64,000 nt of DNA from an uncultured Mailhella sp. (GTDB lineage: Bacteria; Desulfobacterota; Desulfovibrionia; Desulfovibrionales; Desulfovibrionaceae). The stretch's first letter is position 1, and each line of letters opens with the position of its first letter. Below, in pieces: positions 9,851 through 12,740 of this stretch. The notes under the pieces are model-generated. The model was not told the origin of the DNA, did no database searches, and saw nothing but the letters and a program-made list of their open reading frames with translations. The stretch spans positions 1 to 64,000 of the forward strand of contig CALUPL010000064.1 of the NCBI GenBank assembly GCA_944322635.1, read 5' to 3'. The position numbers and the translations under genes are program-made.

Positions 9851-10135
9851 ACTTTTTCAATTCCTCAGAATCCGCCCTGCCATATCGACAGAAATTCGGC
9901 AAAAGCTCCCGCCGCTTTTCTCCGAGCATGACGACCTTCTCCTCCCCCGAAGCGGAATCCCTTCCGCGCGGTCTCCTGCAAAATTCCGACGAATTTTCTG
10001 CCGCAGAACAAAAAAACTTTCTTCCCGTTCCGCTCTTCCGCAACGGCCATGCCGACGGCAGAAGTCGTATTTTCCTTGGGAGACAAAGCCCGAGAGACAA
10101 CTAAGCGAAAAACGTTCCGGCCTTCTCTCCCCCGC

Positions 10136-10164
10136 TTGACATTTTTGAAAGCCGCAAATATAAG
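10136..10164 (+). promoter_or_regulatory. strong sigma-70 promoter for metY-metA
   Basis: Consensus -35 TTGACA (10136-10141), exactly 17 bases, then TATAAG (10159-10164). The predicted start is near 10171, giving a leader of about 255 bases before metY. Confidence 0.8.
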
Positions 10165-10172
10165 GATTTCCA

Positions 10173-10188
10173 GATATAGAGTTATATC
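10173..10188. promoter_or_regulatory. palindromic operator at the metY transcription start
   Basis: A perfect inverted repeat GATATA-GAGT-TATATC placed at about +2 to +18. This is a typical repressor position. Methionine genes of Desulfovibrionales are known to be controlled by the ArsR-family repressor SahR, so this is a candidate SahR-type site. I cannot confirm the consensus from memory. Confidence 0.55.
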
Positions 10189-10203
10189 AAAGGCAGGCAT
10201 GAA

Positions 10204-10284
10204 ATGGAATACTTCCTCGAAATTCTCAACGAGCGCATGTGCAGGGGCGAACCATCAGTCGCACCGGCCTTTTTTCATGCCTGA
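10204..10284 (+). CDS. possible 26-residue leader peptide
   Basis: ATG at 10204 with AGGCAGG upstream, reading MEYFLEILNERMCRGEPSVA and six more residues to a TGA at 10282-10284. It contains adjacent Met and Cys codons (10237-10242). A ribosome paused there would leave the antiterminator segment 10258-10268 free, whereas one reaching the stop would cover the P1 3' arm and allow termination. One Met and one Cys codon are weak control codons, so this could be chance. Confidence 0.25.
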   Translation: MEYFLEILNERMCRGEPSVAPAFFHA

Positions 10285-10297
10285 GCAATATCGGCAG

Positions 10298-10326
10298 AAA
10301 GCCCGTGCGACAAGCGCGGGCTTTTT
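10298..10326 (+). terminator. early terminator in the metY leader
   Basis: Stem AAAGCCCGTGC/GCGCGGGCTTT (one G-U), GACAA loop and a T tract, about 100 bases before the metY start codon and with no gene in front of it. This is the layout of a regulated attenuator. Confidence 0.8.
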
Positions 10327-10427
10327 CATTTTTGTTCACCGGTTCCGTCGGACATGACCCGACCCCCTGTGTCCGACCGGCACAACAGCAATGCAAACAC
10401 GGCTTACGCCTTAAAAAAGGATATCAC

Positions 10428-11711
10428 ATGAACAAGCACATTGAGACCACCTGCGTACAGGGCGGTTACACTCCCGGCAACGGCGAACCCCGTCAGATTC
10501 CCATTATTCAGAGCACCACGTTCAAGTACAACACCAGCGAAGACATGGGCAAGCTGTTCGACCTTGAAGCAAGCGGCTACTTCTACACTCGTCTTCAGAA
10601 TCCCACCAACGACTACGTGGCCGCCAAAATAGCCGCGCTTGAAGGCGGCTCCGCCGCCATGCTTACCTCCTCCGGTCAGGCGGCCTCGTTCTTCAGCGTG
10701 TTCAACCTGGCGAGCGCCGGCGATCATGTTGTGGCCTCCTCCACCATTTACGGCGGCACCTACAACCTGTTTGCCGTTACCATGAAGCGCATGGGCATTG
10801 AGTTCACCTTCGTTTCTCCCGACTGCACCGACGAAGAGCTCAACGCAGCTTTCCGCCCCAACACCAAGGCCGTTTTCGGCGAAACCATTGCCAACCCCGC
10901 CCTTGTGGTGCTCGACATAGAACGCTTTGCCAAGGCGGCTCATGCCCACGGCGTTCCGCTTATCGTGGACAACACCTTTGCCACGCCCGTGAACTGCCGT
11001 CCCATTGAATGGGGCGCCGACATCGTCGTGCACTCCACCACCAAGTACATGGACGGTCACGGCGCGGCCGTGGGCGGCTGCATCGTGGATTCCGGCAAGT
11101 TCGACTGGATGGCCCATGCCGAAAAGTTCCCCGGCCTCTGCACTCCCGACGAAAGCTACCACGGCATCACCTACGTGACCAAATTCGGCAACGCCGCCGC
11201 ATACATCACCAAGGCCACGGCGCAGCTCATGCGCGACTTCGGCGCCATTCAGGCTCCGCAGAACGCCTTTTTGCTGAATCTTGGCCTGGAAAGCCTGCAT
11301 GTACGCATGGCCCGTCACTGTGAAAACGGTCTGGCCGTGGCCAAATACCTCAGCCAGAGCGATCTTGTGGACTGGGTACGCTACCCCGGTCTGCCCGGCG
11401 ACAAGTACTATGAACTTGCCCAGAAGTACCTTCCCAACGGCTCCTGCGGCGTGGTGAGCTTTGGCGTGAAGGGCGGCCGCAAGGCGGCTGAAAACTTCAT
11501 GAAGCACCTGCGCATTGCCGCCATTGAAACCCATGTGGCCGACGCCCGTACCTGCTGTCTGCATCCTGCAAGCGCCACCCATCGCCAGATGAACGACGAA
11601 GAACTGCGCAACTGCGGCATTCTGCCCGAACTCGTACGCTTCTCCTGCGGCATAGAGAACGCTGAAGACCTCATTGCCGACATCGATCAGGCTCTGGAAG
11701 CCAATCGCTGA
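10428..11711 (+). CDS. metY: O-acetylhomoserine sulfhydrylase
   Basis: 427 residues, usual size for the family. A PLP enzyme of the Cys/Met metabolism class that makes homocysteine from O-acetylhomoserine and sulfide (direct sulfhydrylation), an apt route for an organism that produces sulfide. The opening segment HIETTCVQGGYTP is typical, the PLP lysine is Lys206 in STTKYMDGHG, and SSGQAA near 81-86 binds the cofactor phosphate. The ATG at 10428 has AAAAAAGG seven bases upstream; the open frame continues to 10239 through the leader and is not coding there. It is the first gene of the metY-metA unit and controlled by the promoter, operator and attenuator upstream. Confidence 0.94.
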   Translation: MNKHIETTCVQGGYTPGNGEPRQIPIIQSTTFKYNTSEDMGKLFDLEASGYFYTRLQNPTNDYVAAKIAALEGGSAAMLTSSGQAASFFSVFNLASAGDHVVASSTIYGGTYNLFAVTMKRMGIEFTFVSPDCTDEELNAAFRPNTKAVFGETIANPALVVLDIERFAKAAHAHGVPLIVDNTFATPVNCRPIEWGADIVVHSTTKYMDGHGAAVGGCIVDSGKFDWMAHAEKFPGLCTPDESYHGITYVTKFGNAAAYITKATAQLMRDFGAIQAPQNAFLLNLGLESLHVRMARHCENGLAVAKYLSQSDLVDWVRYPGLPGDKYYELAQKYLPNGSCGVVSFGVKGGRKAAENFMKHLRIAAIETHVADARTCCLHPASATHRQMNDEELRNCGILPELVRFSCGIENAEDLIADIDQALEANR

Positions 11712-11717
11712 TTTTGC

Positions 11718-11743
11718 GGGCCTTCCGGATATCCGGAAGGCCC
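11718..11743. terminator. 26-bp perfect palindrome between metY and metA
   Basis: GGGCCTTCCGGAT followed directly by its exact reverse complement, then CTTCCTTA. The hairpin is very stable but the T tract is poor. It may be a leaky terminator or an RNA-stability element that sets the metA:metY ratio. Confidence 0.6.
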
Positions 11744-11798: not shown

Positions 11799-12740
11799 AT
11801 GCCCATCAAAATTCCCAATGAACTTCCTGCCGTAAAAACGCTCAACAACGAAAACATATTCGTCATTACCGAAACGCGCGCCGTCACGCAGGATATCCGT
11901 CCGCTGAAAATACTGCTGCTCAACCTCATGCCTACCAAGATAGCAACAGAGACGCAGCTTTCCCGTCTGCTGGGCAACACTCCCCTTCAAGTGGAACTTG
12001 AACTTATCCACACTTCCAGTCATGAGTCCAAAAACACGCCGCGCAGTCATCTGCTGTCCTTCTATAAAACCTTCGAAGAAGTGCGCGGCAACTACTACGA
12101 CGGCATGATCATCACCGGCGCGCCCGTGGAACTCATGCCCTTTGAGAAAGTGGAATACTGGAACGAGCTTTGCGACATCATGGAATGGAGCAAGAGTCAC
12201 GTGCACAGCACCTTCCACATCTGCTGGGGCGCTCAGGCAGGCCTCTACTACCACTACGGCATTCAGAAAAGGCTTCTGCCCAAAAAAATTTCCGGCATCT
12301 ATCCCCATCATGTGGATCATGCCGGTTCCATTCTCTTCCGGGGCTTCGATGACGTGTTCATGGTGCCCCATTCCCGTAACACCACCGTGGACAGGGCCGA
12401 CGTGGAAAAGCAGCCCGAACTGAAAATACTCGCCTCTTCTCCCGTGGCGGGGCTGTATGCCATTTCTACGGACAACGGCAAACAGATTTTTATTACCGGA
12501 CATTCCGAATACGACGCCGACACACTGCACAAGGAATACACTCGTGACCTTGCCGCCGGAATAAATCCCGAGATCCCCGAAAATTACTATCCAAACGACG
12601 ATCCCAGCCAGCCTCCCCGCATGACCTGGCGCGCCCATGCCCATCTGCTCTACGCCAACTGGCTCAACTATTTTGTCTATCAGTCCACGCCCTACGATCT
12701 TGCAGAACTGGAGAAGCAGGCAAAAGCCGGCCGCAAATAA
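11799..12740 (+). CDS. metA: homoserine O-acetyltransferase (MetA family)
   Basis: 313 residues. Activates homoserine for methionine synthesis. The active-site residues fall at the standard positions: Cys142 in HICWGAQAG, His235 and Glu237 in TGHSEYD. Residue 111 is Glu ([10 protein letters not shown]); in the literature Glu111 goes with acetyl-CoA use, as in the Bacillus cereus enzyme, while Gly111 in E. coli goes with succinyl-CoA. O-acetylhomoserine is therefore predicted, which fits the neighbouring MetY. The ATG follows GGGAGG. It lies 87 bases after metY, across a strong palindrome. Automated pipelines may call it a succinyltransferase; the residue argues against that. Confidence 0.92.

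Follow-up and report, generated by a model that had tools for sequence, protein, structure and literature searches.

Attenuators of the trp, his, leu, thr, ilv and phe type in Proteobacteria carry a short ORF with regulatory codons at segment 1 of the leader, competing pairings (1:2, 2:3 and 3:4) with an intrinsic terminator before the first gene, and a Shine-Dalgarno sequence that is sequestered by a distal leader segment. The metY leader analysed here resembles them in all of these points. Known amino acid attenuators usually contain runs of regulatory codons, whereas the metY leader has a single internal Met codon and a single Cys codon. In other lineages methionine genes, metY included, are controlled by SAM-I, SAM-II and SAH riboswitches. 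A clostridial metY (locus L089) is preceded by a Met T-box (RF00230), which shares with the leader studied here the gene, the presumed signal (charged Met-tRNA) and the terminator/antiterminator output; a T-box binds the tRNA directly and needs no translation, whereas a translation-based mechanism is proposed for the metY leader. The mycobacterial cys leaders likewise place a short ORF with sulfur amino acid codons before sulfur genes (PMC1262725); unlike the metY leader they have Cys runs near the stop codon and no conserved intrinsic terminator, and they are described as acting by translation attenuation (PMC1262725; Canestrari et al., 2020, as cited in PMC13236596). The beta-proteobacterial metXZ RNA element has, like the metY leader, a predicted terminator/antiterminator before homocysteine synthesis genes (Leyn et al., 2014; PMC4239095). 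It belongs to another taxon and to other genes (metX/metZ), and its description sets it apart: six conserved RNA blocks and possibly a pseudoknot are reported, but no leader ORF. A description of a leader-peptide attenuator for metY was not found in the open-licence PubMed Central papers searched.

The window, the whole stretch of 64,000 nucleotides that was analysed, contains metY with metA as the next gene (Table 1). Together, metY and an acetyltransferase-type metA convert homoserine into homocysteine in two steps. The same order, metA directly after metY, is found in the leader-carrying genomes of the genus, the copy in genome G011 being split over two contigs. Judged from the promoter position, transcription is expected to start at approximately 10171. 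The promoter elements TTGACATTTTTG and TATAAGGATTTCCAGATATAGAGTTATATC are identical or nearly identical in eight genomes and largely kept in G001; the promoter scan missed the TATAAG box, which has no T at position 6. The palindrome next to the expected start is invariant in eight genomes. A pattern search of the 19 genomes of the genus found one to two sites per genome in these eight carriers and none in the other 11. It is either a candidate operator for some regulator or a hairpin at the 5′ end of the mRNA. Identity with the SahR operator was rejected: the site reads GAT-N10-ATC, versus the SahR/SamR consensus ATC-N10-GAT (Leyn et al.; PMC4239095).

Table 1. Features of the metY-metA leader and operon. 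Positions refer to the window.
Feature	Position	Strand	Remarks
Promoter	10136..10164	+	TTGACA 10136-10141, 17-nt spacer, TATAAG 10159-10164; basis: sequence
Palindrome GATATAgagtTATATC	10173..10188	not assigned	at or just 3′ of the expected transcription start
Shine-Dalgarno-like AAGGCAGG of the leader ORF	10190..10197	+	partly within P1 left arm
P1 left arm	10194..10204	+	forms 11 bp with 10273-10283; includes part of the Shine-Dalgarno and extends to the first start codon base
Leader-peptide ORF	10204..10284	+	26 codons, MEYFLEILNERMCRGEPSVAPAFFHA; stop TGA 10282-10284, inside P1 right arm
Presumed regulatory codons ATG TGC AGG (Met12-Cys13-Arg14)	10237..10245	+	conservation across 10 genomes
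Segment 1	10244..10250	+	pairs with 10259-10265 as left arm of the anti-antiterminator hairpin
Segment 2	10258..10268	+	pairs with segment 1 (part 10259-10265) or segment 3
P1 right arm	10273..10283	+	overlaps last codons and stop of the leader ORF
Intrinsic terminator (segments 3:4) with U tract UUUUUCAUUUUU	10297..10334	+	terminator prediction; stem from 10296 or 10297 to 10326
Segment 3	10301..10311	+	antiterminator right arm = terminator left arm
metY, O-acetylhomoserine sulfhydrylase (427 aa)	10428..11711	+	TIGR01326, 570.7 bits (cut-off 495.1)
metA, homoserine O-acetyltransferase	11799..12740	+	NF047918, 489.8 bits (cut-off 460.5); next gene

The original prediction had described the anatomy of this leader as a closing helix, two inner hairpins, an alternative helix and an early terminator. 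All of these parts were recovered; it had overlooked the conserved short ORF, which occupies nearly the whole leader. The element precedes metY in 10 of the 19 genomes of the genus, with the 26-codon ORF kept in eight (the window included) and diverged in two. A search of the 19 genomes with the ORF gave matches in the eight at E 4e-14 to 8e-5, those in the seven relatives ranging from 1.6e-10 to 7.6e-5. The ORF is free of indels in the aligned close relatives, length differences being located just 5′ of its ATG. The sequence AAGGCAGG is kept in eight genomes, and G001 has GAGG 7 nt upstream of the ATG. An alternative start, ATG 10199, was rejected: the frame it opens is not kept constant with respect to the rest and runs on through the terminator.

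The eight leader peptides resemble each other along their length. In the diverged G001 ORF (26 codons, MASLSFLFESMCRYGRSSAPVFPRIQ) the N-terminal part of the peptide is not kept, and the diverged G005 ORF (MEYPISDSRMSMCRPD) has a GTG start, ends at codon 16 and contains an extra Met codon two codons before that of Met-Cys-Arg (RMSMCRPD). Both retain Met-Cys-Arg, at codon 11 or 12. When models were built from the other seven leaders alone, they recovered these two at E 5.5e-8 and 9.7e-6 and nothing further among 22 metY loci at E<1; on this sequence evidence, therefore, they are true relatives of the element. The Met codon (position 11 or 12) is kept in all ten genomes and Met-Cys-Arg in nine, the exception being G014 with CGC GGG after the ATG, that is, Met-Arg-Gly. 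Codon-level constraint is weak (pooled pN/pS 0.59; 0.63 in frame +1), so peptide conservation alone is not taken as statistical proof of translation. Such weak statistics would be expected of a leader in which nothing but the regulatory codons and the pairing of the RNA counts.

The closing helix P1 that had been predicted is perfect: C10194-A10204 and U10273-G10283 form 11 Watson-Crick pairs. Shuffling 10172-10330 150 times with dinucleotides preserved gave a longest helix of 6.5 bp on average; seven shuffles reached 9 bp and none reached 11. The leader also folds more stably than the shuffles (z -2.26). Among the relatives, G011 keeps the P1 pairing by a change from G-C to A-U at 10201/10276, G001 has a different helix (GCGAGG/CCUCGC) in the same place, and G016 and G018 have one mismatch. 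Competition with the antiterminator comes from the second inner hairpin (10244-10250/10259-10265), which is conserved; the first (approximately 10216-10233) is weak and differs among relatives. The conserved hairpin, 1:2, has changed from A-U to G-C at 10250/10259 in G001; a single mismatch occurs at 10246/10263, and at the site of this hairpin G005 forms the hairpin UGUGCaGGC/GCCgGCACA.

The alternative helix 2:3, GUCGCACcGGC (10258-10268) with GCCcGUGCGAC (10301-10311), is paired at 10 of 11 positions, exactly as claimed, and the early terminator before metY is a strong one, with 13 pairs followed by CATTTTTG. The terminator stem is kept in nine leaders, with U-G changed to U-A in G011 and G005. 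Pairing in helix 2:3 is maintained by compensatory changes at 10258/10311 (G-C, G-U, U-A), 10259/10310 (U-A, C-G) and 10260/10309 (C-G, G-U); compensatory or wobble-keeping changes occur in G001, G011, G014 and G005. Its 7-bp core is paired at 95% over nine leaders, compared with 8-44% when the arms are slid, figures that are indicative, coming from nine related sequences with hand-aligned columns. In G010 one change weakens both 1:2 and 2:3. If the leader had no regulatory role, the terminator would be an ordinary early one, the complementarity would be due to chance and control would lie only at the promoter palindrome. The palindrome is indeed strictly conserved, and G015 has a metY without this leader. 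The maintenance of 2:3 through compensatory changes, the 11-bp helix reached in 0 of 150 shuffles and the leader ORF kept in ten genomes all speak against it and leave this explanation very little probability.

To see how far the element extends, a covariance model of the leader was run against 288 genomes of the family; strong matches were obtained in 10 genomes of the one genus only, all 5′ of metY, which supports the lineage-specific attenuator that the original prediction gave as one option. The other matches scored below 31 bits, and the 20 that were inspected were ordinary terminators, coding sequence or tRNA sequence. A search of 81 other metY loci (72 mostly clostridial, nine of relatives) returned at best a chance match (E 0.14). 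At the G015 locus (L009, 1330-1500) metY is 91% identical and has a related promoter and half-palindrome without a Met-Cys-Arg ORF; its place is taken by a TTGTCC/GGACAA hairpin and a different, GC-rich one that precedes a T run.

The other option had been a new riboswitch class; it would bind SAM, SAH, methionine or homocysteine, P1 would close the aptamer, and the strand 10258-10268 would do the switching. A long perfect P1, mutually exclusive helices, a methionine gene and the stretch CATCAGTCGCACC, highly conserved in eight close relatives, would suit such an RNA, as would the Rfam results. As had been stated, the leader does not fit the known SAM and SAH aptamers: no covariance match to these Rfam families reached the gathering score in the window or E<=10 in 10100-10430. 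Beyond a terminator hairpin, no leader family of Rfam matches either; a permissive scan of the leader gave only chance or terminator-hairpin matches, for example Leu_leader with 18 bits versus a cut-off of 50. Over the whole 64-kb window no family, tRNA included, reached the gathering score, and in the 19 genomes of the genus the SAM-I riboswitch was not found. The T-box (RF00230) was found neither in the window nor in these 19 genomes. Covariation and an Rfam scan had been proposed as checks; with compensatory changes in 2:3 and no family at the gathering score, neither of the outcomes named as refuting came about. Against an aptamer stands the conserved ORF, which spans the whole supposed aptamer and has its stop codon within P1. 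Furthermore, G001 keeps the Met-Cys-Arg codons and the complementarity, not the loop sequence (ACCAUCAG versus CAGAAGUU), P1 has a mismatch in G016 and G018, and strong matches are confined to one genus among the 288 family genomes. Known aptamers have far more conserved cores and a wider taxonomic spread. No aptamer-like conserved core was detected outside the coding and pairing segments of the leader. A riboswitch is thus unlikely, and we give it hardly any weight. The conserved ORF and the trp-type arrangement of 1:2, 2:3 and 3:4 leave the proposed new class unsupported: the metY leader most likely adds a new, lineage-restricted case to a well-known switch type and is not a new riboswitch. 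It also shows that, where Rfam does not recognise a structured leader, a short ORF should be looked for before a riboswitch is suggested.

The computed features are those of a trp-type attenuator: a leader ORF between promoter and terminator, a 3:4 terminator, a covarying antiterminator and a suitable stall/stop geometry. The Met codon starts 60-64 nt 5′ of segment 3 in nine of nine leaders, and the stop codon lies 12-19 nt 5′ of segment 3 in all nine except that of G005. In computed folds with a ribosome masked at Met-Cys and the transcript extending to the end of segment 3, antiterminator 2:3 formed in 9/9 leaders. With the ribosome masked at the stop codon, only the terminator formed and the antiterminator was barred, again in all nine. 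Ribosome-free full-length RNA folded into the terminator in each of the nine, usually together with P1 and 1:2. In folds of stalled leaders at full length, the antiterminator is often no more stable than the terminator; the decision must therefore rest on the order of folding, as in trp.

Taken together, the metY-metA leader is very probably a ribosome-mediated transcription attenuator of the trp/his/leu type; from its parts, their conservation, the compensation in 2:3 and the computed folds we infer that the leader is translated and that the ribosome stalls on it. A ribosome would translate the 26-codon ORF behind the RNA polymerase that is transcribing the leader. With free passage at Met12-Cys13 the ribosome would reach the stop codon at 10282 and cover most of segment 2, 3:4 would pair, and the terminator would stop transcription before metY. 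With charged tRNA lacking, the ribosome would stall at Met12 (or Cys13) and cover segment 1 (10244-10250), its front edge lying at approximately 10249-10256, short of segment 2; 2:3 would then pair, the terminator would be blocked and metY-metA would be transcribed. If no ribosome is loaded, 1:2 and P1 would form and the terminator would win again. P1 probably conceals the Shine-Dalgarno sequence after the first ribosome has passed, which would allow about one round of translation.

The mask folds and the homocysteine gene pair suggest that stalling occurs at Met12 and that a shortage of charged Met-tRNA leads to read-through; charged Met-tRNA is probably the signal. Alternatively, the same ribosome-mediated attenuator might sense mainly cysteine (or sulfide supply) via the TGC codon and not methionine. 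This codon adjoins the ATG in nine of ten leaders, the MetY family model also bears the name cysteine synthase, and leaders with Cys codons occur in Actinobacteria (PMC1262725). On the other hand, G014 has lost the Cys codon with the rest of the switch intact, together with metA the operon serves homocysteine alone, and the additional codon in the G005 leader is a second Met. Cysteine as the main input, although the foremost rival, is the less plausible choice, and Cys-tRNA an improbable signal; stalling from another cause is improbable to the same degree. Rare-codon stalling at AGG was rejected, as AGG makes up 11% of the Arg codons in the window and is not rare.

A further alternative is arrest by the nascent peptide: a metabolite would make a peptide with an essential Met-Cys-Arg stall the ribosome, and the stall would then be sensed by the same RNA switch. 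It would account for a single Met and a single Cys codon with Met-Cys-Arg nevertheless kept in 9/10 leaders, very diverged ones included, and for the similarity of the eight peptides over their length. The weak amino acid constraint outside Met-Cys-Arg (pN/pS 0.59), the N-terminal part that is not kept in G001 and the Met-Arg-Gly of G014 do not fit, and a stall induced by abundant end product would turn the gene on, the opposite of what biosynthesis calls for in this arrangement. Such an arrest is highly improbable.

A scan of named genomes, in which the genomes closest to the window may be left out, found the nearest metY proteins in Clostridia, the nearest clostridial one being that of L089 (87% identity). 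Its T-box (1216-1441 of the locus) scores 116 bits, and alignment to Rfam places AUG at the specifier position, so that the specifier is apparently Met; L089 is the only one of 20 clostridial metY loci with a T-box above the cut-off. Since the nearest clostridial metY carries this apparent AUG T-box, sensing of Met-tRNA would be a natural control for metY. Exchange between T-box and leader peptide has recurred for other genes between Firmicutes and Proteobacteria (PMC2965389). In the metY tree, whose deep branches are weak and which contains five rows with branch length 10 (probably wrong reading frames), 11 proteins of the genus stand together among unresolved clostridial branches and that of G005 falls into another clade. 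The tree is at most a hint of a transfer of metY.

Our most specific proposal is that a trp-type attenuator, reading methionine via the single conserved AUG or via arrest at Met-Cys-Arg, arose within a single genus, which the original prediction places in the Desulfovibrionaceae. It would control a metY that Clostridia also possess, and the nearest relative there uses a Met T-box to read the same signal; we put this forward tentatively, at slightly less than even chances. If true, methionine (or cysteine) and the metY-metA operon would join the classical leader-peptide attenuators, and a gene shared with Clostridia would be under translation-based instead of T-box tRNA sensing.

The metY of G005 (L012), although placed away from the other metY genes of the genus in the tree, has the same kind of leader, which may reflect gene replacement under a kept leader, or else misplacement or an assembly problem. 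Between metY and metA, a perfect inverted repeat (GGGCCTTCCGGATATCCGGAAGGCCC, 11718-11743) is followed by a weak T tract and is possibly an intra-operon attenuator or a processing site. Relatives have a similar but different hairpin between the two genes (G016: GGGCCTTCCGACgcatGTCGGAAGGCCC).
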